A DNA stretch of 64,000 bases from Lentisphaerota bacterium (GTDB taxonomy: Bacteria > Verrucomicrobiota > Lentisphaeria > Victivallales > Victivallaceae), in NCBI GenBank assembly GCA_015061525.1, contig SUWK01000004.1:1-64000 (forward strand). The letters are read 5' to 3'. Positions 39,338 to 63,579 of this stretch are shown in pieces (the stretch's first letter is position 1; each line of letters opens with the position of its first letter). A program made the position numbers and the translations under genes. The notes beneath the pieces were generated by a model, which worked only from the letters and a program-made list of their open reading frames with translations, was not told the origin of the DNA and did not search any database.

Positions 39338-40504
39338 ATGTATTTACAAACACCGCTCATGATCTCATCACCGGACGAAACCTATGCTTTAAAGCACCGT
39401 TTATGGCAAGGGTGTCCGTCACTTTTAAGAACTCCGAAAGGACGGCTTTATGCAGCCTGGTACTCCGGCGGCGCCGGGGAACCGGACAAAGACAATTACA
39501 ATCTTATCATACGCAGTGACGACGACGGATGGACCTGGAGTGAACCGCTGACGGTCTGGCCCGGCGAAAGCGAAAAGCACTATATTTCCATCGACATCCA
39601 GCTGTGGCTTGATCCGCAAAACCGGATGTGGGTATTCATCACCCAGAGATATCTGCTGGACAATATGCTCTTGACCGATCCGGGGCATCTGGCAACGTGG
39701 GCGTTTATCTGCGACGATCCCGATGCGGACGAATTGGTATTCAGTGAGCCGAAGTACATTGCAAATGGTTTCACCCGCACCCAGCCGACGGTACTTTCCA
39801 ACGGTGATTGGCTGCTTTGCGCCTACGACTGGTGCAGTGAAAATTACCGTTACAGCCGTTCAAAAGATCATGGTGAAACGTGGGAACGATGTGAAGCCGG
39901 ACGGAAATTCGGGATTGCCTTTGACGAAGGCATGATTCTTGAACGTAAAGATAAAACTCTTGCCTATTATGCCCGCACGGCGGAAAAACTTCTTGCATGG
40001 AGTGTCTCCGATGACTTGGAAGGCAGCCATTGGAAAGACGGCGAATATATCCCGATTTTAAGCGGCTGCAGCCGCTTTTTCATCAAACGTCTGCGTTCCG
40101 GCCGCGTGCTGCTCATCCACAACGATTCCCAGCTCCGCCGCACTGATCTGTGCGCCAAGCTCTCCGAAGATGACGGCAAAACCTGGCCATACTCTTTGCA
40201 TTTGGACGAAGCACAGGACAAAGCGCACCATGTGACCTATCCGGATGCCGTCGAAACTGAAGACGGCTATATCCAGATGCTTTATGATTGCGGGCGCAGT
40301 ACATTCAAAGAGATCCGCATGGCACAATTTACTGAAGAAGATATTATCGCCGGAGAATTGCTTGATCACGGCTCCTACTTGCGCCGCATCATCAGCAAAG
40401 CTCCCGGACGTACCGATAAAGATTATGCCGAAAAGAAACAGAATGAACGGGAAATTTGGAGCAAAGAGGTCTTTGCCAAAGTCATTCCGGAATATTTGAA
40501 ATAA
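39338..40504 (+). CDS. Sialidase-superfamily (BNR/Asp-box) protein
   Basis: The 388-residue protein of the six-bladed beta-propeller sialidase type shows three Asp boxes (S-x-D-x-G-x-T-W): SDDDGWTW, SKDHGETW and SEDDGKTW. There is no signal peptide, so it appears cytoplasmic. Many proteins of this group are not true sialidases and act on other glycans or are uncharacterised. The AAGGAT site is 6-7 nt before the ATG. It is followed after 33 bp by the prepilin-like ORF and the DUF4838 gene on the same strand. Confidence 0.8.
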   Translation: MYLQTPLMISSPDETYALKHRLWQGCPSLLRTPKGRLYAAWYSGGAGEPDKDNYNLIIRSDDDGWTWSEPLTVWPGESEKHYISIDIQLWLDPQNRMWVFITQRYLLDNMLLTDPGHLATWAFICDDPDADELVFSEPKYIANGFTRTQPTVLSNGDWLLCAYDWCSENYRYSRSKDHGETWERCEAGRKFGIAFDEGMILERKDKTLAYYARTAEKLLAWSVSDDLEGSHWKDGEYIPILSGCSRFFIKRLRSGRVLLIHNDSQLRRTDLCAKLSEDDGKTWPYSLHLDEAQDKAHHVTYPDAVETEDGYIQMLYDCGRSTFKEIRMAQFTEEDIIAGELLDHGSYLRRIISKAPGRTDKDYAEKKQNEREIWSKEVFAKVIPEYLK

Positions 40505-41524: not shown

Positions 41525-41541
41525 AAAAACAGAGGATGAAG

Positions 41542-44593: not shown

Positions 44594-46936
44594 TTACCGT
44601 TTGACATAGACCGTTCCGAAAGCGGATTCATTGGCAAATGAGCCGTCAGACCAGCTGGAAACTTCTTTTTCATTGCTCACAGCATCAAAGACCGTCCGAC
44701 CGACATTCATCCGCACCTTGAAATCTTTCACGGAATCAGAATATCCCAATTCCGCCAGCGGTATGGCGATAACCATCTGCCACCTGTTTCCGGACTTCTG
44801 TGCGGAAACGGCCGCATTGCAGCTCCACTTGACATCACTCAAGCGGCCGTCCCACAATTCGCCCTCCGGAGTGATGACCAATTGATAGTAACCGTCATTT
44901 GATTTCTGCGGTCCGGCACTGATAAAGAGTTCAAAAGAGGAGTTACCGCGCCAGTTGCGGTTGTCCCTGCCCCATTTGATGCCGGAAACTTTCACATTTT
45001 TCTGATCGGATTCGGCGGCGATGATCAGTTTATCTCCCTGCACGGCACAGTAGACCGAAGCCGGATATGCCGAAGGGATAACTTTATTTTCCTTGCGCAG
45101 ACGGACATTCATGTTATTAAAAAATCCTTTGTTGGCAAGAGCGTGTTTTTTCACCTCTTCAAAGGAGATTTTTCCTTTGAATAAAGTTGCTGTCATCTCC
45201 CGTTTGGGAACGTTGTAACGGCGGGAATATTCGCCGTTGATCAACTCTGCTTCGCGGGCGATGCGTTCAATAAAAAGTTTATTTCCGGATTTGCGGACAG
45301 CGGCTCCGGCAAGGGCAAGCTGTTTTTTGATATATTCCATATCCCCCTGCTGAAAGAGCATCGCCGGGAAATTGGTATCGTATTTGTTCCAGATATACGG
45401 AGAAGGATCACTCTCCCAGCGTTGAGCGATACGGCGGTTGATGTTGCGCATGAATTCAGCAGCCGGTCCGTAATAAAAATTGTAGTAATCAGCTTCCAGA
45501 GTTTCCATATCAGCATGCGGGTCCCAGAGCAGACGGCCGAGGATATGAAACACCTTTTTCATACCGTGCCAGTAGGTGCGGCACATCTCTGAACCGTTTT
45601 TCTGCTTGTACTTTTTCAGCAGTTCCGGTGCAGTTCCCGGACGTGCGCCGTCAACGATACATTCGGTATGGTAGCCGTTGACTCCTATTGAAAGATAATA
45701 CTGCAAATCCTGCTGAAGTATTTTCAACAGCGGCACATCAAAAGCCGGACTGCCGCCGAATTTGACATAATCGCGGATATAGAGCGGATTGCCGAACTTT
45801 TTCCATTCCAGAATGAGTTTGTTCCAGCGGGCGTTGACCGAAGACGCCGGATCATTTATCCGGTGTTTGTAATCTCTGCGATAGGTACACAAACTGATAA
45901 AGAGATTGGGGTGGAGCTTTTTGAGTTTCGGCGGTTCGACTGCAGTAAGATAGGCGTAGACGAAAATCTGCACATCGGGATAACGCTTGCAGAATTTTTC
46001 GGCAATAATGTTGCAGAAGCGGAAATAGCGGGTGGAATAGACTCCGCGTTTGTATTCATCGGGGTCATCCATGGCGCGCTCCTCCGGAGAATCCCCCCAG
46101 CCCATGCCGTCATTCATGCCCATGGCGATCATGGTGGTTTCAGGATATTTCTCCATATAGTCGAACATCCGCTTGACCACGAGATCCTGAAGCTCTTTAT
46201 TACCGACGTTGATCATCCGTTTGGTGGAATAGTTCCACTTTTCAAACTTCTGCCGTTTGCCGTCGATGAGCGGGAAATATTCCGGATGCTGATCAAAATC
46301 TTTGTTGTTTATCCAGTAATAAAAGGCGTGTCCGGTATGCTTGATGTCATAACCGCGGCGGATGAGTTCGCTTCTCTGACCGTTTTCTTTCATGTGGAAA
46401 GGGCGGAAATTGTAACAGTTCATCATCTCCCAGTCCAAAAAATCCGCCTGTAACCCTTTGTAGGCAAAACCTGCGACTCCGCGCAAACTGTATGCCGGAT
46501 TGCTCATCCATGCGCCGGGGGTCAGATCAACTTTTTTTCCCGGAGTACCGTTATCCAGCGGGCGCACCCGGCGGTAGAAACCGGCGCGTTTTTCCAGAAA
46601 ATCACACGCGGCGTAGATCGCGGCGCGTTCCACATTGCCGATGAGATAAACTTTATTTGCTTCAATGACCACGGCAAAACCGTCATCTTTCAGCGTTTTA
46701 CCGCTGAAAAATTTCTTAAAAACCGCGGACAGATTTTTGTCGGCGACGGTTCCGGCAATGACTTCGATCTTTTCAAAATTGTCCGGCAGAGCAGCTTCTC
46801 CCTCGGCAAGGACTTTTTTCAGAACTTCGACCACGCCCTGATACTGGAATTTTACCGGCTTAAAAACAAAAACATCTGCACCGCTCAAAGCGATGCAGAA
46901 TGCGGACAACAACAGAAAAAAACAAATTCTTTTCAC
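44594..46936 (-). CDS. Secreted DUF4838-domain protein with C-terminal CBM9-like domain
   Basis: The 780-residue protein has a signal peptide (MKRICFFLLLSAFCIALSGA), a GH67N-like domain (residues 20-120; ACDFLEKRAGFYRR) and a DUF4838/TIM-barrel-like middle (HTGHAFYYWINNKDFDQHPEYFPL, MIAMGMNDGMGWGDS). The final 150 residues read as a family-9 carbohydrate-binding module (FELFISAGPQKSNDGYYQLVITPEGELWDG, WQMVIAIPLAELGY). It is cotranscribed with the upstream prepilin gene and the downstream LamG gene. Substrate unknown. Confidence 0.83.
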   Translation of the reverse strand: MKRICFFLLLSAFCIALSGADVFVFKPVKFQYQGVVEVLKKVLAEGEAALPDNFEKIEVIAGTVADKNLSAVFKKFFSGKTLKDDGFAVVIEANKVYLIGNVERAAIYAACDFLEKRAGFYRRVRPLDNGTPGKKVDLTPGAWMSNPAYSLRGVAGFAYKGLQADFLDWEMMNCYNFRPFHMKENGQRSELIRRGYDIKHTGHAFYYWINNKDFDQHPEYFPLIDGKRQKFEKWNYSTKRMINVGNKELQDLVVKRMFDYMEKYPETTMIAMGMNDGMGWGDSPEERAMDDPDEYKRGVYSTRYFRFCNIIAEKFCKRYPDVQIFVYAYLTAVEPPKLKKLHPNLFISLCTYRRDYKHRINDPASSVNARWNKLILEWKKFGNPLYIRDYVKFGGSPAFDVPLLKILQQDLQYYLSIGVNGYHTECIVDGARPGTAPELLKKYKQKNGSEMCRTYWHGMKKVFHILGRLLWDPHADMETLEADYYNFYYGPAAEFMRNINRRIAQRWESDPSPYIWNKYDTNFPAMLFQQGDMEYIKKQLALAGAAVRKSGNKLFIERIAREAELINGEYSRRYNVPKREMTATLFKGKISFEEVKKHALANKGFFNNMNVRLRKENKVIPSAYPASVYCAVQGDKLIIAAESDQKNVKVSGIKWGRDNRNWRGNSSFELFISAGPQKSNDGYYQLVITPEGELWDGRLSDVKWSCNAAVSAQKSGNRWQMVIAIPLAELGYSDSVKDFKVRMNVGRTVFDAVSNEKEVSSWSDGSFANESAFGTVYVKR

Positions 46937-48144: not shown

Positions 48145-50910
48145 ATGAAAAAACTTATATGTTTCGCAGCGTTGCTGTGCTGTGCGCTGGCTTTGCCCGG
48201 AGCTGAACTCAATCCGGTCGCTCTGGTCGGCTACAAGTGGGACATCAACGAACTGAACTCCTCGATCCTCTATTCCGCCCGGGTCGATACGGTACGCTTC
48301 GTCAACAAATGGCTGCCACCTGCCGAATATGGTAAATTTTCCGCTGTCTACATCGGAGAAAGATTGCGCGGTCTGGGCAAAAATGACAACTGGAACGATC
48401 CGCAGGCGATAAAAGATGTGCTTGCGTACCTCAATAACGGCGGTGTCATTATCACTTCCGGGATCACTCCGGCAGATCTGCTCGACTCCGGTAAATTCCC
48501 GAAAGAATTTGCATCGATTTTCGGTTTTGCCCGTTTGTTCAAGCCGGACAAAACCAAAGGCATGAAGGTCAAAGGTGAAAAAATGATCTTCCCGCTCAAC
48601 CCGACCAGAGCTGCAGCCAAGCCTGCTGCAACGCTCCAAGTCATCGGAAGTCTGCTTGGAGATAACGGAAAAGAATATCCTGTTATCACCAGTTTTGCTG
48701 TCGGCAAAGGTAAAGTGATCTGGATCGCCCCCTGTTACGGCTTGTTTTTGCGGACATGCAAAAAAACCGGAGCAGTGATGGGATTTCCCGATGACAGAGG
48801 AGATTATATCTTGAGCGACGAGGGAAAAATCCGCGAAATGCTCATCAAGTTATACACCGATACCTTCCTCGCCATTCCCCAAGTCAAACTCCTGCCTCCG
48901 CTGGAAAAATGGGACAACAAACCGCTCGGTGCCCCCGGCAACCTCACCTATACCGGGAAGTTCAAAAATCAGGCAAATCTCAAAAACAAAGCTCCGGTTC
49001 TCAAGCCGGGCGTCCCGCTGTGCAAAGAGGGCAAACTTGCCGTAATTTATACTCCAGCCAAAGACAAACGTTTCGCCAGACTTGCCGGAGAATTGAAGTA
49101 CCATCTGGATAAAATGACCGGAAAATCTTTTACCATCACCTCCAGACTTCCGGCAGCTTCTCAAAATGCCATCATCTTCGCCGATGAAACAGTCGCCGCC
49201 AAATACGGTATCGACATCAAAAAACTCGAACAGGACACCATGCTGCTTGCCAGAAAAGGCAATCATCAAATCGTAAGCGGTAAAGAGTGCGGTATCTCCC
49301 AGGCGTTGACCGTCCTGCTTGAATCCATCGGCTGCCGCTATCTGTGGCCGGGTGCTGACGGAAAGATCATCCCCAAAAAAGCTGAACTCATCCTGCCCGA
49401 ACTCAACAAGTGCTACACCCCGAAACTGCGGGTCCGCAATATCCGTGAAAGACTTCATGTCAACAACCGGGTGCTGGCGCATTTGTTCACTTTTGGTGTA
49501 TCCGATAAAGATTATCACGAACGCTATAAAGCTATTGAAATCGATGCCCCGGGCAACCGCAAATACTTTGAATGGCACGGCTTGAACGATTCAGCCAAAA
49601 CCACCGGCTGGGTACAGGGACCGGAACAAACTTATGAATGGGGGCACTCATTCAACGACTTCCATCTTCGACACGGACGGAAGAATCCGGACTTCTTTGC
49701 CTTGCAGCCGGACGGCAAACGTTACGCAATGGAGCGTCCCCGCCTCTGCCACTCGAACCCGAAACTTCTGGATCAGATCGCCGCTGACCGCATTGCCAAA
49801 TTCCGCAAATACCCCCACAAAGTCGCCCTTTCCCTATGTCTGAGCGACGGCGGTTACAGCAGCATGTGTCTGTGCGAAAACTGCCGCAAAATGGATCCGG
49901 TGAACGCCCCTCCCCGTGATCTGGGAATATTCAAACCGACTCGCGGTCGCGTTCCTTATGTTGAATTCACCGACCGCGTCCTTGCCTTCAGCAACGCCAT
50001 CGTGGAAAAAGTCCACAAAGTTCTGCCGGGCAAAAAATTCGCAATATATGCTTACAGCCGTTATGTCAAACCTCCGGTCAGAGTCAAACCGCATCCGGAT
50101 CTCATCATCCTGACCGTCGACGGTCTTTATGTCAGCGATGCCAGCCGGGCGGCAATGCACAAATCCATCGCATCCTGGGCGAGTTTCGGCAATCCGCTGC
50201 TCTGGCGGCCCAATGCGCTCCAGGGACACCGCTACATGACCCTGCCCCAAAACCACGCCCGCCGGATGTTCAACGATGTCGAACTGTATAAAGCCAACGG
50301 CCTGATCGGCACCGACTTTGACGGTCTGGAAAAAAGCTGGTCATGCAAAGCATGGATCTACTATGCCCTCAGCAAGGCGCACTGGAACTGCGACCAGCTC
50401 GATTACGATGTCATAATGAATGACTTCTGCGAAGCCGGTTTCGGCCCTGCCGCCCCCCATGTCAAAGCTTATCTGGACAAACTGGAAGCTCTTTCTGATG
50501 CCGCCGCCGCCCGTAACAAAACCCTCCGTCACAGTACAGACTACGCCTACGTTGTCGATGCAAAAGCCGTGGCTGAACTCAATGCATTTCTGGCAAAAGC
50601 CGCTGAAGCCGCTGAAAAAACTCCGGAATATCTCAAGCGGGTAAAATTCCTTCAGGAAGGAATGAAATACGCTGATCTCAACAACAAACTCACCGTCACC
50701 AAAGGTAAAGATCCCAAAGCGTATGCAAAATATCAGCAGGAGCTGATAGCTCTGGTCAAAGCTCACGTGCTGCTCGACCCGCGGATCATCGGTGCTCCTG
50801 ACACCGGAGCATACAACTCCCACCTCCCCCGTCAGGCAAGAATAAACGGTAATCTGGCTGCGGAAAAATATATTCAGGAAAATAAACTTTTCCACTTGAT
50901 CAGACGCTGA
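48145..50910 (+). CDS. Secreted DUF4838-domain protein (glycoside hydrolase-like), 921 aa
   Basis: A signal peptide (MKKLICFAALLCCALALPGAE) precedes an amidotransferase-like domain (VLAYLNNGGVIITSG, FAVGKGKVIWIAPC), a GH67N-like domain (LKYHLDKMTGKSFTIT, YLWPGADGKIIP) and DUF4838 (RPRLCHSNPKLLDQ, CLCENCRKMDPVN, VKPHPDLIILTVDG, LWRPNALQGHR). It is a clear paralogue of the 15353 and 18829 genes. GAAAGG lies 6 nt upstream of the ATG. It is transcribed alone, with its own promoter and a strong terminator, and without an adjacent prepilin in the same unit. Substrate unknown. Confidence 0.87.
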   Translation: MKKLICFAALLCCALALPGAELNPVALVGYKWDINELNSSILYSARVDTVRFVNKWLPPAEYGKFSAVYIGERLRGLGKNDNWNDPQAIKDVLAYLNNGGVIITSGITPADLLDSGKFPKEFASIFGFARLFKPDKTKGMKVKGEKMIFPLNPTRAAAKPAATLQVIGSLLGDNGKEYPVITSFAVGKGKVIWIAPCYGLFLRTCKKTGAVMGFPDDRGDYILSDEGKIREMLIKLYTDTFLAIPQVKLLPPLEKWDNKPLGAPGNLTYTGKFKNQANLKNKAPVLKPGVPLCKEGKLAVIYTPAKDKRFARLAGELKYHLDKMTGKSFTITSRLPAASQNAIIFADETVAAKYGIDIKKLEQDTMLLARKGNHQIVSGKECGISQALTVLLESIGCRYLWPGADGKIIPKKAELILPELNKCYTPKLRVRNIRERLHVNNRVLAHLFTFGVSDKDYHERYKAIEIDAPGNRKYFEWHGLNDSAKTTGWVQGPEQTYEWGHSFNDFHLRHGRKNPDFFALQPDGKRYAMERPRLCHSNPKLLDQIAADRIAKFRKYPHKVALSLCLSDGGYSSMCLCENCRKMDPVNAPPRDLGIFKPTRGRVPYVEFTDRVLAFSNAIVEKVHKVLPGKKFAIYAYSRYVKPPVRVKPHPDLIILTVDGLYVSDASRAAMHKSIASWASFGNPLLWRPNALQGHRYMTLPQNHARRMFNDVELYKANGLIGTDFDGLEKSWSCKAWIYYALSKAHWNCDQLDYDVIMNDFCEAGFGPAAPHVKAYLDKLEALSDAAAARNKTLRHSTDYAYVVDAKAVAELNAFLAKAAEAAEKTPEYLKRVKFLQEGMKYADLNNKLTVTKGKDPKAYAKYQQELIALVKAHVLLDPRIIGAPDTGAYNSHLPRQARINGNLAAEKYIQENKLFHLIRR

Positions 50911-51039: not shown

Positions 51040-51927
51040 ATGAATAAAAAAATTCTTTTGTTTTTTATATTTTCCTTTACCGCAATAATGCTCAACGCCG
51101 GAAATAAAGAGTGCTCGACCTGTGGCAGATCCGGCAATCTCCGCATCTTTTTCGGGAAAGAATTTTTTTGTTCAAAAAAATGTATCCCGGAAAAATTCTA
51201 TTGTTCGATCTGCGGTGAACTTCCTAAAGGCAAATACCATTATTTTACCGATCTCAACGGCAGAACACACCATTACTGTCACCCCTGCTTTCAAAACAAT
51301 CCCCGCTGTTCCGCCTGCAACCGTCCGCATGAAAGCAATTCCGCAAACAGTATCTGCCAAGACTGTAAAAATGGAATGATAACCTACAATAAAGCGTGGA
51401 GCATAATGCAGAAACTGCGCCGGGAACTCGCAGCTGACTACGGTTATGATGCAAAGCACAAAATCTCGTTGAAACTGGTCGATAAAAACACAATGGTACG
51501 CACCAGCGGTTCAAAATCCGCAATCGGCTACACCCAATATAAGATCCGTTACAAAACTCACAAAAACAAGCGGGGTGCCACCCGGACAACCGATATCCGG
51601 CATGAATGCAATATCTTTTTACTCAAAACCCTCAATGAGAAAAAAGCTCACGCAGTTCTGGTTCACGAACTCACCCACGACTATCTGTTTCACCATCTGG
51701 GCAAACCTGTCAACAGCAAAGTCAATGAAGGTATCTGTGAAGCAATGGCAGGAGCATGGCTGATGAAACACGGAGAAACAGAGCTTTTTGAACAGATGAA
51801 AAAAAATCCCGACCCTACTTACGGGGCGGGATTCAGATCACTTTATCCGCAACTTCAGCGTTACGGATTCAAAAACATGCTTGAACGCAACAGAAATGCG
51901 TTCAAGCCGTTCATCAGAAAACGTTAG
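51040..51927 (+). CDS. Secreted DA1-like metallopeptidase with zinc-ribbon/LIM-like N-terminus
   Basis: The 295-residue protein has a signal peptide (residues 1-20) and a cysteine-rich region (25-109) with CSTCGRSG, CSKKC, CSICGE, YCHPC, CSACNRP and CQDC, which reads as several zinc ribbons or LIM-like modules. A C-terminal DA1-like domain (about 115-295) follows. The zincin motif HELTHDYLFHHL (209-213 for HELTH) and the third-ligand glutamate in NEGICEAMAGAWL match plant DA1 peptidases. Plant DA1 has ubiquitin-binding motifs plus LIM and peptidase domains. Here export implies extracytoplasmic substrates. It is convergent with ackA, with stops overlapping by 4 bp. Confidence 0.8.
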   Translation: MNKKILLFFIFSFTAIMLNAGNKECSTCGRSGNLRIFFGKEFFCSKKCIPEKFYCSICGELPKGKYHYFTDLNGRTHHYCHPCFQNNPRCSACNRPHESNSANSICQDCKNGMITYNKAWSIMQKLRRELAADYGYDAKHKISLKLVDKNTMVRTSGSKSAIGYTQYKIRYKTHKNKRGATRTTDIRHECNIFLLKTLNEKKAHAVLVHELTHDYLFHHLGKPVNSKVNEGICEAMAGAWLMKHGETELFEQMKKNPDPTYGAGFRSLYPQLQRYGFKNMLERNRNAFKPFIRKR

Positions 51928-53214: not shown

Positions 53215-54708
53215 TCAAAATTCCTGAATCGGATGGACTCCCGGAGTCAACTGATACTGACACCAGCCGGTCTTGATATATTCACCGGCCTCCATATCCC
53301 AATCGACCTGCCGGGTATGCTGCGCCAGAGCCAGCCGGTTGGAAAGAGTATCTTCCGGAAGTGTTTCCGGATTCCAGGCAGCAGCGGCGGCGGCGCAGTG
53401 AATGGCAGTTTCCCTGCGGTCATGGAAGATATGCCAGGTGGTTTCAAGCATACCGGCAAGTTTTCTTTCTGCCGCCATTTTCCCCTGTCTCACGATGCCC
53501 TGCCAGTTGAGCCACGGGCAGACCAGCACATCAAAATTTTCCTGTTTGAAAAATTTTGCCACCGGCCAGTCGGGATCGGCATCTTCCGGAAGTGTTTCCG
53601 GATCGCGGTACTGCCAGTCGGCAATTATGATGTCGCGGGGAAGTTCTCTGTACAACTCACCGAGCTGATGTTCCGGCAGACCGCAGGCGGTATAGCCTTT
53701 CCAGCGGGGATCACCTTTGGTAATAAGCATGTCGTGCCACATGATGAGCCGCGTATTGCGTTGGGCAAGGAGATCATGGAAATAACAGATGTGTTCTTTG
53801 ACCAGAGATTTCAACTCTTTACGCCGGCAGTCCCGGCAGGTGGCGATATTGTCCGCCTCATCGCAACCGATATGGAAGAACGGCGGACCGTCGAAAAATT
53901 CACAGAGTTCCAACACCAGACCGGTCAAAACTTTGCGGGTTTCCGGATTGGTAAGGCACCAGCTCCACCCCTCCGGTTCAAAAAGCGGCTGAAGTTTCGG
54001 CTCATAACTCAACACCGCGTGTTTGCCGGTGATGGAACGGCTCGCTGAAGCATGTCCGAGCAAATTCAATTGCGGGACAAGGGTTATTCCCAGTTCTTTT
54101 CCCAGAGTGATCAGACGTTTCAAGGCGGCTTTGTCCAATTGTTTATCTTTCCAGACAAATTCCGGATGGCTTTCAAAGGGAAAAACGCCCCACGGCTCTA
54201 TGACCGCATAATTGAATTTGTGATATGCGGCAATGCGGAGCTGTTTTTCAATATCCCAGAGCGGAGTTTCCGGAAAAATGCACAGATGGATACCCCGGAA
54301 CGCGAGTGCCGGAAAATCATCGATATCACATTGGACAAGGAAATACCCGGAAACTCTCTCTGTTCCGCGCTGAACTTCCGCCAGCTGCCGGAGCGTTTTC
54401 ATGGCATTGAGCAGTGCAGTCTTGCCGTTGGCAGAGATTTCCAGAATATTTTCTGAAATATTGATTTTATAACTTTCGTCACAATTCAGCGTTTCCGGGA
54501 GAGTTTCAAGGCGGATCTCCGGCACGCTCTGCCAGTATGCAGAAAAAAGTTTCCCGGCAAGAGCGGCACAATTTTCGGCATCGCGCGGCAGCTTGAGAGT
54601 AACCATGCAATTGTCGCAGATAAGAAATTCATTCCCGTCCCGGAATTCAATTTTCTGCGGCCGGGGGATCAGCCGGTCGGTAAGGATTTTTATTTCACGA
54701 TCCGTCAT
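53215..54708 (-). CDS. Glycoside hydrolase family 20-like beta-N-acetylhexosaminidase
   Basis: The 497-residue protein has a GH20b-type N-terminal domain (IPRPQKIEFRDG) and a TIM barrel with FRGIHLCIF and LVPQLNLLGHA. The catalytic Asp-Glu pair lies in FFHIGCDEADN, matching H-x-G-x-D-E. There is no signal peptide, so it should act on imported oligosaccharides. It is the last gene of the seven-gene minus-strand operon beginning at 62530. GAGGTG precedes the ATG. Release of terminal N-acetylhexosamine is the family role. The true substrate is unknown. Confidence 0.82.
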   Translation of the reverse strand: MTDREIKILTDRLIPRPQKIEFRDGNEFLICDNCMVTLKLPRDAENCAALAGKLFSAYWQSVPEIRLETLPETLNCDESYKINISENILEISANGKTALLNAMKTLRQLAEVQRGTERVSGYFLVQCDIDDFPALAFRGIHLCIFPETPLWDIEKQLRIAAYHKFNYAVIEPWGVFPFESHPEFVWKDKQLDKAALKRLITLGKELGITLVPQLNLLGHASASRSITGKHAVLSYEPKLQPLFEPEGWSWCLTNPETRKVLTGLVLELCEFFDGPPFFHIGCDEADNIATCRDCRRKELKSLVKEHICYFHDLLAQRNTRLIMWHDMLITKGDPRWKGYTACGLPEHQLGELYRELPRDIIIADWQYRDPETLPEDADPDWPVAKFFKQENFDVLVCPWLNWQGIVRQGKMAAERKLAGMLETTWHIFHDRRETAIHCAAAAAAWNPETLPEDTLSNRLALAQHTRQVDWDMEAGEYIKTGWCQYQLTPGVHPIQEF

Positions 54709-54717
54709 AACGGCACC

Positions 54718-55794
54718 TCATATTTTTACAGTTGAACCGCTTTTGATACTTTCATAACAAGCATTCATGCAGGCGATGGTTTCGCGATGCCACTTCAAAT
54801 TTATTTTCGGCTGCTTATGATTGCGGATGCAATCGACAAATTCATCAATGAGTCCGATCCATTCATCGAAGTAGGTATACTGAACGGTATAACGGTCATT
54901 GGGTGCGCCGTTGTGATAGACATTGGGACCGAAGCAATCGCACTGGATCATACCTTTTTCGCCGGTGATGGTGACATTGACCTCCATGCGTTTTGGGAAG
55001 CGTTCCCATCCGGGGCCCGGCACTTTGAGCCGCTCTTCAAGGCGTGACCATGAAGGGTCAAAAAGGAATGCGGTACCATCTTTCATCTTTCCGGCTGCGA
55101 GCACCATGTCTTCCACTTCCAGCTCTTTGCGGAGATTCGGGGCGGCCTGGGCGAAAACTGAATCAAAACTTGAACCGGTCAGCCAGCGGATCAAGTCAAA
55201 GATGTGCGGATGGTCACACAATGCCCCTCCCCGGAAACGGTGATCGTCACCAGACAATGGCACGCGCTTGCCGTAACTTGCCTCCGGACTGCCCTGCCAC
55301 GGGAATGCCCAGACCGGAGAGAGAGTGATATTGGTCGCCTGGATCGAAAGCAGTTTGCCAAGCGCGCCTTCAGAAATCAGCTTCTGCAGCCGTTTCACCA
55401 CCGGATTGTAGTGCATTTCAAGTTCGATCTGGCAGACGATACCGGCCTTATCGACCATATCGATCATGGCATCATACTCATCCATATCGAATGAGGGTAT
55501 TTTCATGGAAAGAATATGGATACCGCGTTTGGCACAGAATTCCATATCCTTATAGTGCTGATCATTGGCAGAAGCGATGACGATGGCTTCTATGTCCGGG
55601 TGTTCGGCGATCATTTTCTCCGGATCGGGATAACATGGAACTCCGGTATTGTATAACTCATAAACCTTTTGAGCATCTTCATCCTGCGCGCAGGAGGCGA
55701 CCCAATCCAGTTTCTGATTTTCGAGCAGAGTCTGATAATATTTTCTGGTATGCCCGTGGGTCATGCCCATCATGGCGATTTTTACCGGTTCCAT
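54718..55794 (-). CDS. Gfo/Idh/MocA-family oxidoreductase
   Basis: The 358-residue protein has an N-terminal Rossmann domain (VKIAMMGMTHGHTRKYY, with GMTHGHT in place of G-x-G-x-x-G). A catalytic segment reads ILSMKIPSF where E-K-P is usual. The substrate domain contains FRGGALCDHPHIFDLIRWLTG. It probably acts on a sugar or sugar acid. It lies in the operon between the GH20 gene and the short orphan protein (2 bp from its stop to the next start). Confidence 0.87.
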   Translation of the reverse strand: MEPVKIAMMGMTHGHTRKYYQTLLENQKLDWVASCAQDEDAQKVYELYNTGVPCYPDPEKMIAEHPDIEAIVIASANDQHYKDMEFCAKRGIHILSMKIPSFDMDEYDAMIDMVDKAGIVCQIELEMHYNPVVKRLQKLISEGALGKLLSIQATNITLSPVWAFPWQGSPEASYGKRVPLSGDDHRFRGGALCDHPHIFDLIRWLTGSSFDSVFAQAAPNLRKELEVEDMVLAAGKMKDGTAFLFDPSWSRLEERLKVPGPGWERFPKRMEVNVTITGEKGMIQCDCFGPNVYHNGAPNDRYTVQYTYFDEWIGLIDEFVDCIRNHKQPKINLKWHRETIACMNACYESIKSGSTVKI

Positions 55795-55796
55795 CT

Positions 55797-56516
55797 TTAA
55801 AATCCTCCTTCCACATTGACAGGGAGATTGTTTGAAATACTTTCAAGCGCACAGTCAGCCAGTTTTACCGAACGGCGCGCCGCAGCGCTCCAGAGTTCCG
55901 GCAGCGAAGCATCTTTCAAAACTGCGTAAGCGGCACGGACGATCCAGATCGCATCGTCCGGCAAACCGAAAAGTTCGGTATCGACATCGGTGAAAGTGGT
56001 TTCTCCGTCCGTATTCCACAAATAAATGGAGTGCTGCGGAACTTGAGTATCCACTCCGCGGTCACATCCGACTCCGCGGCGGGCGATGATCTCGTGCCGG
56101 TCAACGTTTTTGGTATTGACCGGCAGATTAATTCCGCATTCGATACTGGCACTGATACCGTTGGCAAAACGGACGATACAGTTGCAGACCTTTTTACCGT
56201 CGCCGCCGGCGAAAATGCGGACGACCGGAGAATCAGCGAGATATTCGGCGAGATCAAGTTCGGCAGCCAGAAGTTTTTTCAGATCACCGCCGGCAGTGAA
56301 TTTGGCAAAACGCAAAGTTGAAACCTCTTCCAAAGTTGCGGAATCGATCATCTTTTTAAGTTCGATGATACGCCGTTCCACGCGGTGCGGAAGCAAAGGG
56401 AATGTTCCGGAAGTTGTTTCAACACAGAAGTAATCGCTTCCGGCAACGACAGTTCCGGCGGGAAAACCGTATTTGTCCCGCAGAAACTCCAGAGATTCAT
56501 TCATTCGGGTAATCAT
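55797..56516 (-). CDS. Stand-alone protein resembling a Gfo/Idh/MocA C-terminal domain
   Basis: The 239-residue protein lacks a Rossmann fold. Its second half reads like the beta-sheet domain of Gfo/Idh/MocA enzymes: CNCIVRFANGISASIECGINLP, EIIARRGVGCDRGV and the closing RRSVKLADCALESISNNLPVNV. The first 90 residues are not recognised. It overlaps nothing but starts 1 bp after the SIS gene's stop. It may partner the complete oxidoreductase encoded next to it. Weak homology only. Confidence 0.55.
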   Translation of the reverse strand: MITRMNESLEFLRDKYGFPAGTVVAGSDYFCVETTSGTFPLLPHRVERRIIELKKMIDSATLEEVSTLRFAKFTAGGDLKKLLAAELDLAEYLADSPVVRIFAGGDGKKVCNCIVRFANGISASIECGINLPVNTKNVDRHEIIARRGVGCDRGVDTQVPQHSIYLWNTDGETTFTDVDTELFGLPDDAIWIVRAAYAVLKDASLPELWSAAARRSVKLADCALESISNNLPVNVEGGF

Positions 56517-56517
56517 T

Positions 56518-57276
56518 TCAAAGACTCTTGATCAGGGGTTTATATTTCTTGAGATAAGCGGCATTCTTTTCGTCACCGCCGGGTGCGTTGGCACTGTTCC
56601 AGACCGGCGGAGTGATGCCGCGTTCGACACACTGACGGACCGTTTCTATTTCCAGCAAGTGGGCGATGGTGAAGTCCACCACATTGGAAACCGGTGCGAT
56701 GGGAGTGTCAAATCCCGGCACATTGACTATGGCATCTCCGACCGGATTGTAATCGTCGATGCACACGTCGGCAAAGTCAAAAAGGTTTTTACCGGAAGAA
56801 TGGCGGATGAAATGGTCGGCAGGCATCTCGTTCTGCCAGTAACTGCTGGCGACGGCGATGATTTTGCCGCCCCGTTTTTTGATTTCCATAGCGGCATCGA
56901 TGGTGGCGGGATTGATGCCGATGTTGTGAAAGATTATGACCAGATCATCCGGTTTGATATCATAATATTTGATGATGGAGGCGCCGAAGTTTTCCGTGCG
57001 TTCCAGTTCCAAATATTTGAGAGCCTGATTGAAAACCGAAAGTGCAGTTTCCATCAGCGGATCGATATTGGCAAGACCTCCGGCGCGGAAGAACATCTCG
57101 CCCATTGCAAGCGTGGTATGTCCACCGCCGGCATAGATGTGGATAAGTTTATCTTCCGCGATGGCATCCGCCATAAGTTTGGCGGCACGTTGGATATTTT
57201 CCGCCTGATTGTCCAGTACCTGCTGAATATTGGCAAACGCTTTTGCCACATATCCGAAATCATTTAATTTTGCCAT
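56518..57276 (-). CDS. SIS-domain phosphosugar-binding protein (COG4821-like)
   Basis: The 252-residue protein has a SIS fold: LIHIYAGGGHTTLAMGEMFFRAGG, then DDLVIIFHNIGINPATIDAAMEIKKRGGKIIAVASS and PIAPVSNVVDFTIAHLLEI. SIS domains bind phosphosugars as isomerases, deaminases or ligand sensors. This type is uncharacterised. AAGGAG lies 8 nt upstream. In this operon it might act on phosphorylated amino sugars released by the hydrolases. Confidence 0.82.
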   Translation of the reverse strand: MAKLNDFGYVAKAFANIQQVLDNQAENIQRAAKLMADAIAEDKLIHIYAGGGHTTLAMGEMFFRAGGLANIDPLMETALSVFNQALKYLELERTENFGASIIKYYDIKPDDLVIIFHNIGINPATIDAAMEIKKRGGKIIAVASSYWQNEMPADHFIRHSSGKNLFDFADVCIDDYNPVGDAIVNVPGFDTPIAPVSNVVDFTIAHLLEIETVRQCVERGITPPVWNSANAPGGDEKNAAYLKKYKPLIKSL

Positions 57277-57307
57277 TTATCATTCTCCTTGTTTGAAGTT
57301 TTATTTA

Positions 57308-59110
57308 TTATGCCGGGACATTTGAATCAAGTGCGTGTTTGCAGCAGTTTTGGGCAAATTTTGCCAAACGGTCAGCTGCGGCAGCACCGTCAAGCAATGC
57401 CGTATTATCATTAAAAAGCTGAATGATTTTTTGTTCAAGTTCGTATTGCAGATGGTAATCCTGTCTGCGCCTGGCAGTTTCCGCACCGGATGCCAGCACT
57501 GTATATTCGATCCAGAGCCGCAAACGGGCGATGTTTTTTTCCGGAAGCTGAAGATTCAACGCATCAAATTCATCAAGCAGTTTTTTTGAAAAATCCCGTA
57601 CCCCATGGTCCAGATCTGAAGTGATCCGATCGATCAATCCGGCGGCAACTCCCAGCATCACAGCACTTTGGGCAGATATAAGCTGATTTATATCACATTC
57701 CGGATCCCACAGAACCCGGCTGTGAAAACTGTACAATCTGCCGTCGGGCCAAAAGGCAGGGTAGGGACAGGAACAGTCATAGTATACCTGCATACCGTCA
57801 GCGATAAAGCGGCGCAATTCGTCGGCAACCAGTTCCGGCGCCGGATAACGCAGATAGCGGCTGCGGTCGATGCCCTCTTTGTAATCTGTAAACAGCAGCT
57901 GATAATAAGCAAAAATATTGGCGGAACTGTTGCGGGATCTCATTGCTTTGATCCAATCATTCCACAGCGGACCGTATTCGCGGTCATCGACTGGACATAC
58001 CGGGTCGGCTTCGGGATAATTTTTGCCCAGACCGTTTTTTACCGGTTCCAGACCGCTGTCGTAAAAGCGGTGATGATAGTGGCGCAGATAGGGACAGAAA
58101 ATGGTGTAGGTGCGGGAAAGATCTGCCATTTCCTGCGGCAGAGTCAGAAGCGAACAGTATGCCAGAAGTTCCAGATAGACCGGACGCGGAGAAAGTTTCA
58201 GCACTGCATCCGCCAGTCTCCGAACCTGATCAAAGGGGGTGATTTTTTTACATTCCGGGCATTGGCACCAGTTGTTTACTCCGTCGTGCGGCCAGAGCGC
58301 AAAAACCTTGATTTCCGGATGTTTTCCGATGTATTCCGCAATATTTTTTGCGATATAGTTTACCGCTTCCGGGTTGGAGAAGCAGGGCTGCAGCGGACCT
58401 TGAGAAAATTTATTCGGCATATCAGGCATGGAAATTTTGCTGCTCAGCCGTCTTTCTCCGTAGCGCATACCGAAATATTCCGGATGGGTTTCAAACAGTG
58501 ATTCTGCGATAAAGTTGTTCATCGCGTGGCCGCCGATATTGAGTTCAACGGCGCACAGATGTGCCAATTCGATCAATTCTTCGCAGTTTTCAGCTCCCTC
58601 CCACCGCCAGACGTGGATCATGGTGCAATTCCATTGATTGCGCGCCATCCAGCGGAGCATTTTGATAAAAAACGGTCTTTCGGTATCAGGGTAAAGTCCA
58701 TTCATCCCGCGGAATGCGACCTTGGGCATTGAAGCGGCACTTTCCGGGACGATGGGACCGAAACTGATTTCATCATCGTTTACATTGTTCCATTGAACTC
58801 CGGTCGTTTGGCGCAGCCAGGAATAAAAACCGTAAAGCACCCCGGGGTAACCGCCGCCGGAAATAAGGATTTTACCATCACAGTTTTCAATGGTGTAACT
58901 TTGGGCTTTGCGGAAATCTTCGGCGTATTCGGCAAAACTCCGTTCATCCGGGAGCAGGGGTGATGACGCATTGCTGTGCAGGATCAAACCGGTTTCAATG
59001 AACTGTATATTATGTTTTGCTGCCGCTTGAAGCACCAGAGCGAGTTCAGCGTTTATAAAGTTTGTTTCTGCTGCGGTGAGGTTTGATTGTATGATTTTTA
59101 CAATGCTCAT
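57308..59110 (-). CDS. Cytoplasmic DUF4838-domain glycoside hydrolase-like protein
   Basis: The 600-residue protein has no signal peptide, unlike the other DUF4838 proteins in the window. An N-terminal GH67N-like part (SGGGYPGVLYGFYSWLRQTTGVQW) leads into the DUF4838 region (MNNFIAESLFETHPEYFGMRYGERR, VFALWPHDGVNNWCQCPECKK). The C-terminal third is helical. It is the third gene of the operon starting at 62530. Its location suggests action on imported oligosaccharide, but the substrate is unknown. Confidence 0.82.
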   Translation of the reverse strand: MSIVKIIQSNLTAAETNFINAELALVLQAAAKHNIQFIETGLILHSNASSPLLPDERSFAEYAEDFRKAQSYTIENCDGKILISGGGYPGVLYGFYSWLRQTTGVQWNNVNDDEISFGPIVPESAASMPKVAFRGMNGLYPDTERPFFIKMLRWMARNQWNCTMIHVWRWEGAENCEELIELAHLCAVELNIGGHAMNNFIAESLFETHPEYFGMRYGERRLSSKISMPDMPNKFSQGPLQPCFSNPEAVNYIAKNIAEYIGKHPEIKVFALWPHDGVNNWCQCPECKKITPFDQVRRLADAVLKLSPRPVYLELLAYCSLLTLPQEMADLSRTYTIFCPYLRHYHHRFYDSGLEPVKNGLGKNYPEADPVCPVDDREYGPLWNDWIKAMRSRNSSANIFAYYQLLFTDYKEGIDRSRYLRYPAPELVADELRRFIADGMQVYYDCSCPYPAFWPDGRLYSFHSRVLWDPECDINQLISAQSAVMLGVAAGLIDRITSDLDHGVRDFSKKLLDEFDALNLQLPEKNIARLRLWIEYTVLASGAETARRRQDYHLQYELEQKIIQLFNDNTALLDGAAAADRLAKFAQNCCKHALDSNVPA

Positions 59111-59125
59111 TTTTTTGTCCTGATC

Positions 59126-61471
59126 TCATTGTTTGAATTGTGCGGTCAACTTATCAGCTGCTTCTGAAGCAAGCTTGTCATATTGAATAAACACTTCACT
59201 GATTTCTGCCAGAGCTTCCAGCGTTTCGGGAAGTTTTTGCTCATACGCGGCGTGGTCGATCACGGTGAGCGGGGTTTTGTAAAATTTATCCTGAACGGCG
59301 GTATGTTTCGCCTTGATGTCGGGGAGAGTTTTGAAGTCGATCGCAGTTCTGTCATCCGTTTCAAGGTGCATTACAAACGGAGCAAAAATAAAATAGAATT
59401 CATCGATACACAGCGGCATCAATTCATAGATATAACTGCGGCAATAGGCGTTTTCAGCATTGGCTTTGAGTGTTTTTTCAAAATCCGGGTTACATTCGTA
59501 TTTGCTTTGCAGATCGCATAATGAATCATAAAGCGAATAGTCGCTGCTTACTCCCAGTACACGCTGCAGCTGTGTATAAAGTTCTCTTATCAGCTGGAGC
59601 GATTTTAAGACTTTTGCAGCAGCAACTTCTCCCCGGCACCACCGGTTGTAATCGACCGTAAAACGGCAGTATGCGCCGGTGTGCAGACGCCCCGCCGTTG
59701 AACGGATTATATCGAGCAGGTCGCGCCGGACAAAATTATCAGCTTTGCCGAAGTCAACTTTGGCGATTGTACGGAAAAGTTCCGGCATAGCGGCAAATTC
59801 AGAAACGTGATCATCAACAAACTTTTTTTGAACTTCCAGCTGATCTTCTGTTGTGTTGCCGAGAATGCCGCAATAAGCATATTCAAAGGGGCGCAAATGG
59901 ATTTCGCCGCTCAAAGATTTGCGGGTGAAGCCGCGCATTTTGATCATCGGCTGGAATTTCTGCCAGATTTCCAGCATTGCCGGCAGATCTTTTTTGCCGT
60001 ATCTGTCAGCGGCAAATTTGGGCAGAAAAGCGGCAAGTTCCCGGTTTTCTCTGACTGGATTCCAGGAGTTTGCGCCCAGATATTCCAGCATAAGCGTATC
60101 GGAGTGCGAACACTCCGGCCAGAGTATCATTCCCTGACACATTTTGTCATTGGCGGCAGTTTCCAAACGTTCGGCGATGATGTCATAAAAGCCGCGAATA
60201 TCATTGCTCGGTTCATAGGCGTGAAAAATGCCGAATATCCACGGAAATTTACCGATAACGTCCCAGTTGGTAAAATTGTTTACTTCATCATCGGTTTCAG
60301 ATGTGTAGTCAAGGATTATGGTGTTGCGCGGATCCAATTCTTTGAACAGCGAACGCACCTCTTCCGGTTTCCACAGCAGCCAGAAATCCCACGAAGCCAG
60401 CAGCAGCGGTGCATCGGGATATTTTTCCCTCAGTTTATTGATCAATCTCCGGTAGGTATAGAGTTTCAGCTGATGGTTGGCATCGCGGTCAGAGAAGCAG
60501 TTGCGTTCACCCAGCCCGATGGTGTGAAATATCTTTGCTTCGCCGTATTCCCGGATATGGGTTTCGGTCAGATGAAAATAGTTATCCAGATTTTTTTCCT
60601 GCCGTATATCCCAGACCAGTCCGGTAGGTTCACTGTAAGCTCTGGTCGCCTGCGGCAAAAAATCCGGCTTGACTGCTTCAAGAAAATCTTTTGGCGTCCG
60701 GCTGTACCAGTGAGTCATCGTACCGAAATCTTCAGGGTGGAGCAAACCGCGTTCTCTGCCGTAAGCAAGTATCGCTTTGCGCAGTTCGCCGCGGTGCTGC
60801 AGACTCCAGAAGAGATCGCGGTCATCGTAGGAACGTTCCCGGGATTCCGGGACTTTGTATTCGGGATATTTGGCAAATTCCGGAAATGCCTTTTGAAACA
60901 GATCATCCATCCCGATACGGAGCATATACAAATTGAACCGTTTTTTCAGGCACCAGTCCAGTTCCCGCTTCCACTCTTCCAAATTCCAGTGTTCCGCTTG
61001 AAAACGGTTCAAGCTGCGGTGGGCAAAGTAACGCAGACCGCGATAGTGAAAACGGGGCGTTTCAGCAATATTCCAGTCGGCAAGCGAAATCTCCTGTCCG
61101 GCGGGGATGCGGTCGCCGTCCCAGAAGTAGCGGCAGCCCTGCAGTTCAAAAAAATGGTATACCGCATAGAAATATGCCCGCTTGCAGCCGGCGGCAAAAA
61201 AGAGCAGATTTCTGCCGTTTCCCCGCACTGAAACGATTTTGTAACTATCGCTTCCGGTAACAATATTCAACTCCGGCAGGGTGCCGTCAAGAATTTTGTC
61301 GTGAGTATAGCTGTTAACTGCATCTGATCCCAGAATGACCATATCTTCGCCGGCTGCCGGGACGGCAGTGATAACTGCTTTGCTGCCGGTGATTTGTTCA
61401 TAATATTTTTTGAACTCCTGCGCCGGCAGCTGAAAAAAGTCATTCGCGTCTGCAATCAGAATTCTCAACAT
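59126..61471 (-). CDS. Large glycoside hydrolase-like protein, GH89/alpha-N-acetylglucosaminidase type
   Basis: The 781-residue protein has no signal peptide. An N-terminal small domain is followed by RYFWDGDRIPAG and a barrel opening FHYRGLRYFAHRSLNRFQAEHWNLEEWKRELDWCLKKRFNLYML. This resembles the start of the NAGLU barrel, where a W-x-x-E-I-D-W segment occurs. Candidate acidic residues lie in TIGLGERNCFSD and MILWPECSHSD. A long helical C-terminal region (from about 560) is also like GH89. Classification from memory is tentative; DUF4838-like proteins are the alternative. Confidence 0.6.
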   Translation of the reverse strand: MLRILIADANDFFQLPAQEFKKYYEQITGSKAVITAVPAAGEDMVILGSDAVNSYTHDKILDGTLPELNIVTGSDSYKIVSVRGNGRNLLFFAAGCKRAYFYAVYHFFELQGCRYFWDGDRIPAGQEISLADWNIAETPRFHYRGLRYFAHRSLNRFQAEHWNLEEWKRELDWCLKKRFNLYMLRIGMDDLFQKAFPEFAKYPEYKVPESRERSYDDRDLFWSLQHRGELRKAILAYGRERGLLHPEDFGTMTHWYSRTPKDFLEAVKPDFLPQATRAYSEPTGLVWDIRQEKNLDNYFHLTETHIREYGEAKIFHTIGLGERNCFSDRDANHQLKLYTYRRLINKLREKYPDAPLLLASWDFWLLWKPEEVRSLFKELDPRNTIILDYTSETDDEVNNFTNWDVIGKFPWIFGIFHAYEPSNDIRGFYDIIAERLETAANDKMCQGMILWPECSHSDTLMLEYLGANSWNPVRENRELAAFLPKFAADRYGKKDLPAMLEIWQKFQPMIKMRGFTRKSLSGEIHLRPFEYAYCGILGNTTEDQLEVQKKFVDDHVSEFAAMPELFRTIAKVDFGKADNFVRRDLLDIIRSTAGRLHTGAYCRFTVDYNRWCRGEVAAAKVLKSLQLIRELYTQLQRVLGVSSDYSLYDSLCDLQSKYECNPDFEKTLKANAENAYCRSYIYELMPLCIDEFYFIFAPFVMHLETDDRTAIDFKTLPDIKAKHTAVQDKFYKTPLTVIDHAAYEQKLPETLEALAEISEVFIQYDKLASEAADKLTAQFKQ

Positions 61472-61492
61472 ATCTGAAGACCCTGCGGAATT

Positions 61493-62530
61493 TTACTTTT
61501 TGAGAACGCGTTTGTAATTTTCGCCGATGGTATCCCACAATTTCAAGGCATCAGGAGCACCGACAACGGTTCCGTAACCGCCGCGATAGGTCCAGGCGGC
61601 GATGCGGTCGACTCCGGCTTTTTCAGCGATATCCACCCATTTGCTGATCTGTTCCCATTCCTTGGGCTGCTTGTAGTATCCCATGAACCAGCGTTCCGCT
61701 TTTTTGCCGTATTTACGGGCGACGGCGACCGTGCGTTCGGTGATATCCCGGAAGAAATCCTCCGGCAGTGCCCAGTTGACGATGGTGGTCGAAAATACGT
61801 CAAAATATGGACAGCCTGCCACCATATCCCAGTTGTCGTAGCCGCGGTATTCGGAAACATAATATCCGTTCTGCGTAGCGTGAACACAACAGGTTATTTC
61901 CAGTTCCGGCTTCAGCTCTTTGAGAGCTTTGGAAGTTTCACTCAACACCACCAATGCTTCCCGCCAGCGGAAAAGTTTCACATCGTTGGTCATATAACGC
62001 GGCATGGGATAACCGTAGTAATCTTCAAAGCGCTTGCGGCAGACCGGGCAGTAACAGGTCCAATCATCCGCCACCCCGCCGGTGATTGAAGCAATGCCCT
62101 TGGGGAATGCGTAGTGCGGTTCATCCCAGAAGAAACCATCGGCATCGGTTTCCCGGGCCAGCGTGAGGCAGAAGTTTTTGAAGTAATCGCGGTAACTGTT
62201 GGTGTTGAAACAGGCGTAGGGAAGTTTTTCGCCGGTAAGTGCGGAAACCTGACGGTTCTCCACATTGTCCTGCAGAAACTTTGAAACTTGTTCACCGCCG
62301 AAGTATTTACCATTGCCCCAGGGATCAATGATGACTTTCAAACCGAGTTCGTGCGCTTTGTCCACGATTTTGGGAATATTGGGACGCCAGAAGTCAAAAT
62401 CAAATTCTGTGACCGCCAGAATAACGGCACTGCAGCCGTGGGAGATCATCTCTTTGAAATCAGTTTCGGCATGTTCCACATAGTTCAAGCCGTAGTAACT
62501 GACCGCAGTTTGGGTAATAGCCATAGACAT
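61493..62530 (-). CDS. Putative TIM-barrel glycoside hydrolase-like protein
   Basis: The 345-residue protein shows a (beta/alpha)8-like succession: HGCSAVILAVTEFDFDFW, LGLKVIIDPWG, DADGFFWDEPHYAFP, LEITCCVHATQNGYY and VDRIAAWTYRGGYGTV. A cysteine pair CYCPVCRKRF resembles that in DUF4838 proteins. No named family is certain. D-x-x-x-W-D-E could hold catalytic acids. There is no signal peptide. First gene of the operon. The start was moved to the ATG at 62530, with AAAGGA upstream; a second ATG lies two codons on. Confidence 0.65.
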   Translation of the reverse strand: MSMAITQTAVSYYGLNYVEHAETDFKEMISHGCSAVILAVTEFDFDFWRPNIPKIVDKAHELGLKVIIDPWGNGKYFGGEQVSKFLQDNVENRQVSALTGEKLPYACFNTNSYRDYFKNFCLTLARETDADGFFWDEPHYAFPKGIASITGGVADDWTCYCPVCRKRFEDYYGYPMPRYMTNDVKLFRWREALVVLSETSKALKELKPELEITCCVHATQNGYYVSEYRGYDNWDMVAGCPYFDVFSTTIVNWALPEDFFRDITERTVAVARKYGKKAERWFMGYYKQPKEWEQISKWVDIAEKAGVDRIAAWTYRGGYGTVVGAPDALKLWDTIGENYKRVLKK

Positions 62531-62739: not shown

Positions 62740-63579
62740 ATGAATATCGATCAAATCCGCGAAAATGCAAAAAAGCTGAAGGAACCGGATAATCTTTACA
62801 AAGGATTGACATTGGCGGAAGATTTTGAACTTCCGGACAATATTCTGCTTTTTTATCACGACTTCTGCGCCGCCGCACCGAACGCCCACAACCGTTACAC
62901 GATGGTCTTTCCACTGGCAAAAATGCACTATTTTGTGGACAATCAGGAATATGATATCGATTCCGGAGATTTACTTTTCATCCCGCCCTACTCCCTGCGT
63001 TTTCTGTCTGCTCAATCCAGTGGGTATCAACGTCTGTTCATTACATTTCAACTTAAAAGGCCGCAAAGTTACCTGCCGGAAAAATGTCTGAATAAACTCT
63101 CGGATGCCGCGATGGGCTTTCTGCAGAAAATATTTGACAACTTCAACTCCGGCAACGCTCCGGAACTGGCACTGAACCTCTGGGGTTTTCTGACCAATCT
63201 TGCTCCGGGCAGACAATCCGGTCAGGCTTCAACATTAAGCCCGGAGATCGCACGCGCGGTGGCTTTCATCATCGACAATCTGCATACTGCGCCGGATACT
63301 CCGTCAATTGCAGCCAAAGTCAATATGAGCGTCAGCAATCTCCGCCGCCGTTTTCATAAGGAAACCGGAGTGTCCATACATCATTATATTTCGCAGCAGC
63401 GTCTGGATTTTGCCCGCTGCTACCTGCAAAAAAGTTTTATGAGGATCGAAGAGATCGCCGGTAGATGCGGTTTTCTCTCCGCCTCAAGTTTCAGCCATTT
63501 TTTTATTACCAACACAGGGATGTCTCCTCTGAACTACCGGAAAAATTTTCAGATAAACCACAAAGATGATTCCGATTAA
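62740..63579 (+). CDS. AraC-family transcriptional regulator
   Basis: The 279-residue protein has an N-terminal cupin-like ligand domain (VDNQEYDIDSGDLLFIPPYSLRF) and C-terminal AraC helix-turn-helix motifs (DTPSIAAKVNMSVSNLRRRFHKETGVSIHHYISQQRL and MRIEEIAGRCGFLSASSFSHFFITNTGMSPLNYR). It is divergent from the hydrolase operon and is the natural candidate to bind the 21-bp-spaced repeats. The effector would be a sugar from the degraded glycan (inference). Confidence 0.9.
   Translation: MNIDQIRENAKKLKEPDNLYKGLTLAEDFELPDNILLFYHDFCAAAPNAHNRYTMVFPLAKMHYFVDNQEYDIDSGDLLFIPPYSLRFLSAQSSGYQRLFITFQLKRPQSYLPEKCLNKLSDAAMGFLQKIFDNFNSGNAPELALNLWGFLTNLAPGRQSGQASTLSPEIARAVAFIIDNLHTAPDTPSIAAKVNMSVSNLRRRFHKETGVSIHHYISQQRLDFARCYLQKSFMRIEEIAGRCGFLSASSFSHFFITNTGMSPLNYRKNFQINHKDDSD

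Follow-up and report, generated by a model that had tools for sequence, protein, structure and literature searches.

A conserved TIM-SIS-orphan-Gfo core in an apparently undescribed catabolic operon tied to N-acetylhexosaminidase-family genes in a Lentisphaerota bacterium

Background

Among the closest described relatives of the proteins considered here is NagS (SCO4393), the N-acetylglucosamine-6-phosphate (GlcNAc-6-P) dehydratase of Streptomyces, in which H53, R64, E94 and D179 are essential and S91 and N228 important (PMC12680351). Residues S54, S119 and S121 bind the phosphate, and single Ser-to-Ala changes at these positions hardly cut activity (PMC12680351). NagS orthologues among Streptomycetaceae share at least 58.7% identity, and homologues at 26–36% identity have no or negligible GlcNAc-6-P dehydratase activity (PMC12680351). 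Here, we analysed a seven-gene operon encoding a distant relative of NagS within a 64,000-nucleotide stretch of a Lentisphaerota bacterium of the Victivallaceae (GCA_015061525.1, contig SUWK01000004.1, positions 1–64,000), hereafter the window. The operon is genuine and conserved, and forms a catabolic module, apparently undescribed, that is tied to N-acetylhexosaminidase-family genes. The genes concerned are the following, together with the divergent regulator:

61493..62524, minus strand: TIM-barrel core enzyme (TIM), 343 aa; 8 beta-strands in the AlphaFold2 model, 265 relatives, invariant D134-E135
59126..61471, minus strand: GH89-like (NAGLU barrel) protein, 781 aa; PF05089 1e-16, E322 and E453 in all 13 homologues aligned
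57308..59110, minus strand: DUF4838 protein, 600 aa, accessory; PF16126 3e-18
56518..57276, minus strand: SIS protein (PRK02947/NagS superfamily) whose phosphate site is altered; SIS_2 1e-32, PRK02947 1e-70, NagS/3cvj homology
55797..56516, minus strand: orphan C-terminal domain of the Gfo/Idh/MocA type, probably a non-catalytic half-subunit; AlphaFold2 model, Foldseek E 4e-11, residue comparison
54718..55794, minus strand: Gfo/Idh/MocA oxidoreductase (Gfo); PF22725, PF02894 and PF01408 above cut-off, K98, D194 and H197 invariant
53215..54708, minus strand: GH20 protein, 497 aa; PF00728 3e-10, PF02838 3e-7, PDB 8bal 3e-14, D283-E284
62740..63579, plus strand: AraC-family regulator, divergent; HTH_18 2e-21

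Conservation and spread of the core

The NAGLU-like protein was searched against 137 genomes of the same order and gave matches in 28, many of these loci having an identical gene order; since this order recurs in so many other genomes, the operon is more than a chance arrangement. Across these same-order operons, TIM, SIS and Gfo share 73–91% identity, and NAGLU, the orphan and GH20 only about 45–66%. The TIM alignment was then scanned against 84,980 species genomes, which yielded 265 relatives, the best 80 of which belong to Lentisphaerota, Kiritimatiellota, Verrucomicrobiota and Clostridia/Oscillospiraceae and come, according to their record titles, mainly from rumen and hindgut but also from wastewater and groundwater. 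Neighbourhoods were counted at 81 TIM loci, many of which end at contig edges. SIS was present in 60 of them, Gfo in 47 and the orphan in 45 (42 alongside Gfo). The glycosidases comprised GH20 (41 loci), NAGLU-like (19) and GH123 (4), and the remaining recurrent genes were a LacI-type regulator (26), a second SIS (19), a major facilitator superfamily (MFS) sugar porter (18), a PfkB kinase (16), a GNAT acetyltransferase (4) and AAC(3) (2). Regulators in the relatives are either divergent AraC or upstream LacI-type. From these counts and the gene order, the conserved core is TIM-SIS-orphan-Gfo, with 40 or more loci in Lentisphaerota, Kiritimatiellota, Verrucomicrobiota and Clostridia; around it, the glycosidases, acetyltransferases, kinase and transporter vary. 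The initial annotation of this DNA had named the gene families of the operon correctly; its emphasis on the glycosidases did not hold, as these form the variable part, and it had listed the core without weighing it.

The window proteins are about 72% (TIM) and 70–73% (SIS) identical to the Clostridia copies, compared with 52% for TypA, a slow housekeeping GTPase that served as the sole baseline protein because KARI, the other baseline, had no match in this genome. In the TIM tree, Clostridia form one fully supported clade and the deep branches are weak. Gene transfer between phyla is the simplest reading of these comparisons, which is not proof and relies on one baseline protein only.

Organization of the operon

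In the open reading frame list, the seven genes occupy 53215–62524 on the minus strand, with intergenic gaps, from the TIM gene downward, of 21, 15, 31, 1, 2 and 9 bp. A distance of 215 bp separates the AraC start from the TIM start, which was taken as 62524 because the orthologue alignment begins only at MAITQT; the frame also has possible starts at 62530 and 62602. A tightly spaced set of seven genes divergent from AraC had been described before and is borne out, as is the claimed lack of signal peptides: no N-terminal hydrophobic stretch was found in any of the seven proteins, as judged by hydropathy only and not with a dedicated signal-peptide predictor. Likewise, neither a transporter nor a sulfatase is present within the operon, as had been noted. 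The downstream acetate kinase was considered as an eighth gene; it is absent from the relatives' loci and has its own strong promoter-like match at 53202–53174, so that it probably lies outside the operon. No defence-system matches were found.

The SIS protein

The SIS protein scores 113 bits against the Pfam SIS_2 model (cut-off 27), and among solved proteins it comes closest to 3cvj and NagS, the match being distant (phmmer E 1e-25). It retains the residues essential in NagS as H53, R64, E92 and D181, plus N230 (NagS N228), and carries T54, H117 and I119 in place of NagS S54, S119 and S121, L89 in place of the sugar-contacting S91, and also A229. The residues T54, H117, I119 and L89 occur in all seven core SIS rows and are invariant in the 12-row alignment. 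In other operons, a second SIS (SIS2) stands beside PfkB, and an alignment of seven SIS2 sequences retains all the NagS contact residues that were compared. Since the core SIS has lost the phosphate serines that SIS2 retains, the comparison favours an unphosphorylated sugar as its substrate. The protein was rejected as NagS itself on the basis of the phosphate-site residues and sequence distance, lying outside the group of orthologues at 58.7% identity or more. It was also rejected as MurQ by model match.

Another explanation is a salvage route for N-acetylmuramic acid (MurNAc) from peptidoglycan, in which SIS would act as a MurQ-like etherase on unphosphorylated MurNAc. NagS and MurQ are related, both being SIS enzymes whose substrate is a 2-acetamido sugar phosphate, yet the window protein matches PRK02947 (1e-70) and not the MurQ model PRK05441 (E 0.059), and GH89-like and GH123 neighbours are unsuited to peptidoglycan, which makes this explanation highly improbable.

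As a separate observation, a ribokinase-like PfkB kinase comes after the second SIS in a series of TIM operons (loci L082, L085, L094, L098, L104, L129, L140, L142, L144, L148, L149 and L150). SIS2 and PfkB are a candidate phospho-amino-sugar branch outside Streptomycetaceae, and the residue retention in SIS2 is relevant to whether NagS-type chemistry is confined to that family, as has been claimed.

The oxidoreductase and its orphan partner

Gfo contains the Rossmann and C-terminal domains above the Pfam cut-offs and keeps K98, D194 and H197, with an Asp–His spacing one residue shorter than that of IolG. The GxGxxG NAD(P) loop is absent and replaced by (G/S/A)xTHGH in 12 of 12 sequences. Its best NCBIfam match is iolG, inositol 2-dehydrogenase, at 80 bits compared with a cut-off of 355.

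The adjacent orphan has only a weak Pfam match (E 0.007). Its AlphaFold2 model (predicted local distance difference test, pLDDT, 91) matched inositol-dehydrogenase-type Gfo/Idh/MocA proteins in Foldseek (E 4e-11, TM 0.60). We read the modelled protein as a Gfo/Idh/MocA C-terminal domain devoid of an NAD domain, because its 239 residues include no Rossmann domain. None of 34 sequences has Asp or His at the two catalytic positions, with the register set by eye against the IolG motif, and the His position is occupied by R, K, A, E or T. Small orphan-like genes also appear to precede Gfo at loci where Gfo itself is remote, as judged by position and not by alignment. The near-constant pairing of orphan and Gfo suggests that they may form a mixed oligomer. 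No description of a Gfo enzyme paired with a separate C-terminal-domain protein was found in the literature searched.

This enzyme pair is where two further explanations meet the evidence. In a pathway of the 3-keto-glycoside type, Gfo would oxidise the glycoside at C3, an elimination would then break the bond and the remaining core proteins would complete the process, with GH20 and GH89 as accessory trimming enzymes. The C-glycoside oxidoreductases DgpA and DgpA2 are among the relatives (by sequence match to Gfo and fold match to the orphan, respectively), and Gfo weakly matches the disaccharide 3-dehydrogenase and glycoside 3-dehydrogenase models. Furthermore, beta-elimination following C3 oxidation is already established enzymatically (PMC10628242). 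However, Gfo reaches only 39.4 vs 650 and 22.9 vs 750 bits with the curated 3-keto-dehydrogenase models (BT_2158/BT_2159), its best match is the inositol 2-dehydrogenase, itself under cut-off, and Pfam showed neither a sugar epimerase/AP-endonuclease barrel nor DUF1080 nor a DgpB/C-type partner in the window operon. We consider such a pathway unlikely. That same iolG match would suit catabolism of amino-cyclitols or aminoglycoside-like compounds, in which an inositol-dehydrogenase-like enzyme would work with acetyltransferases and glycosidases, and AAC(3) in two loci and GNAT in several would provide the acetyltransferases. These are nevertheless rare and of two unrelated families, and the recurrent neighbours include no other recognisable inositol-pathway gene, with GH20, GH89-like and GH123 recurring instead; we thus regard this explanation as very unlikely.

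The TIM-barrel protein

No sequence-family match for TIM above cut-off was found in Pfam, NCBIfam or PDB, and PDB profile searches with TIM and with the orphan gave nothing meaningful. The AlphaFold2 model is a (beta/alpha)8 barrel of moderate confidence (pLDDT 71), in agreement with the TIM barrel named by the initial annotation. Foldseek returned generic barrels only (GH164, GH5, tagatose epimerase and GH56), so that no family was assigned. The alignment and the model place the invariant D134-E135 pair directly after strand 4. An Asp-Glu pair after strand 4 also occurs in GH20 and other substrate-assisted hexosaminidases, an analogy that suggests TIM may be a hexosaminide-processing enzyme.

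The glycosidases and the DUF4838 protein

The GH20 protein scores 40.3 bits with PF00728 (cut-off 22.3) and 31.7 with GH20b (26.1), and contains the D283-E284 pair, whose Glu is found in 15 of 17 aligned sequences and is Lys in two Clostridia. In the GH89-like protein, the NAGLU barrel scores 61.2 bits (cut-off 25.5) and E322 and E453 are present in 13 of 13 sequences; no match to the NAGLU_N model was obtained for 59126–61471. Because this protein is far from solved and characterised GH89 members (best phmmer E 8e-5), it is assigned as GH89-like only, and specificity for alpha-linked N-acetylglucosamine (GlcNAc) is not established. The earlier GH20 assignment is hence sustained by score and Asp-Glu pair, and the GH89 one by barrel and glutamates, though not as to the alpha linkage. 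The proposed amino-sugar context fits the glycosidase genes counted at the 81 loci, and is well supported by these neighbours; the glycosaminoglycan, mucin or N-glycan fragments named earlier are candidate substrates.

The DUF4838 protein at 57308–59110 scores 66.5 bits (cut-off 26.6), and its gene was not found in the other syntenic operons. Five more DUF4838 proteins are encoded in the window (15353–18031, 18829–21540, 41536–43773, 44594–46936 and 48145–50910), one of them with CBM_4_9, and a BNR-repeat protein (39338–40504) lies near these genes. They constitute an unusual expansion, within 64 kb, of a family unassigned in function.

The presence of nagA and nagB in this genome, and in nearly the whole order, would also suit an ordinary glycan-degradation operon, in which GH20 and GH89 would free GlcNAc for NagA and NagB and the other genes would be loosely linked side activities; the GH20 and GH89-like domains above cut-off are in line with this. 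Yet conservation is higher, and linkage steadier, for the core genes than for the glycosidases, which is the opposite of what would be expected, and we deem the explanation quite improbable. The operon was also rejected as a substitute for a missing Nag pathway; with nagA and nagB present, it would be an extra route.

Transport, acetyltransferases and other genes

Import from elsewhere, as previously proposed, fits the window operon, but 18 of the related loci carry an MFS sugar porter close upstream of TIM. Several Kiritimatiellota GH20 proteins at these loci have signal-like N-termini, which together with the porter is consistent with uptake of a small product.

In two Clostridia operons, AAC(3)-family genes (L139:14258-15055 and L149:16340-17200) lie near a GH20 with Lys instead of the catalytic Glu; their products may be amino-sugar acetyltransferases and not resistance proteins. 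In several Lentisphaerota operons, a GNAT gene lies between SIS and the orphan (L033:12138-13022, L077:14139-14996 and L130:8506-9363), and these operons often also contain a GH89-like gene.

Elsewhere in the window, 51040–51927 encodes a protein that looks secreted, contains cysteine-rich zinc-finger-like repeats as well as a HELTH metallopeptidase motif, and matches the DA1 family (PF12315, E 6e-11), known from eukaryotes.

Discussion

We interpret the locus as an inducible cytoplasmic operon for N-acetylhexosamine oligosaccharides with a core that acts on unphosphorylated sugar, an interpretation for which the balance of evidence stands about even. Small amino-sugar oligosaccharides would enter via a transporter encoded elsewhere, and GH20 and the GH89-like enzyme would trim terminal beta- and alpha-linked N-acetylhexosamine. 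The core would handle the sugar that is left over or set free, with no phosphorylation beforehand: SIS would take the C2 proton as NagS and MurQ do, with the C3 substituent lost or shifted; Gfo and the orphan half-subunit, as a mixed oligomer, would oxidise or reduce the sugar; and TIM, with its Asp-Glu pair placed as in substrate-assisted hexosaminidases, would cleave or rearrange it. In Kiritimatiellota and Clostridia, the PfkB kinase and the phosphate-type SIS would lengthen the route.

Several points weigh against this interpretation. NagS tolerates Ser-to-Ala changes at the phosphate site, so the serine loss is no proof of an unphosphorylated substrate, and the poor dehydratase activity of NagS homologues at 26–36% identity counts against transferring the chemistry. 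Plain GlcNAc would need no such route with nagA and nagB present. The profile comparison between orphan and Gfo is weak (E 0.058), and the fold matches of TIM are generic and its model moderate. Both the precise substrate and the chemistry of the four core proteins are predicted.

In a stronger form, which we think rather unlikely, the core would be a new cross-phylum amino-sugar pathway. SIS would perform C2 deprotonation and C3 elimination on an unphosphorylated N-acetylhexosamine or 3-linked oligosaccharide, TIM would found a new glycoside hydrolase/lyase family, and the oxidoreductase would be complexed with its non-catalytic half-subunit. The interest of the locus lies in a core more conserved between phyla than TypA, in two core proteins devoid of an assigned function, and in an SIS protein from whose altered pocket a clear prediction follows. 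Should that prediction hold, an amino-sugar route would exist beside the Nag pathway, and hundreds of genomes could be annotated. A limited literature search found no published account of the operon, in keeping with the initial view of the pathway as undescribed.

Comparison with known systems

The SIS protein resembles NagS in its SIS_2/PRK02947 fold and in the equivalents of His53, Arg64, Glu94, Asp179 and Asn228, but differs in having Thr, His and Ile at Ser54, Ser119 and Ser121 and Leu at Ser91, and is distant in sequence. Gfo shares both domains and the catalytic Lys, Asp and His with Gfo/Idh/MocA oxidoreductases and the C-glycoside enzyme DgpA, and is set apart by the xTHGH loop and by its pairing with a separate C-terminal-domain protein that lacks the catalytic residues. 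As in GH20 beta-N-acetylhexosaminidases (8bal, 9fyl/9fym), the window GH20 has the catalytic domain, GH20b and the Asp-Glu pair, although it is predicted to be cytoplasmic and appears secreted in some Kiritimatiellota relatives. The GH89-like protein shares with GH89 and lysosomal NAGLU the PF05089 barrel and two invariant Glu at the expected places, whereas it has no NAGLU_N match or signal peptide and is remote from solved GH89 structures. Finally, the operons with both GNAT and GH89-like genes are reminiscent, as an analogy only, of the acetylate-then-cleave logic of lysosomal heparan breakdown.

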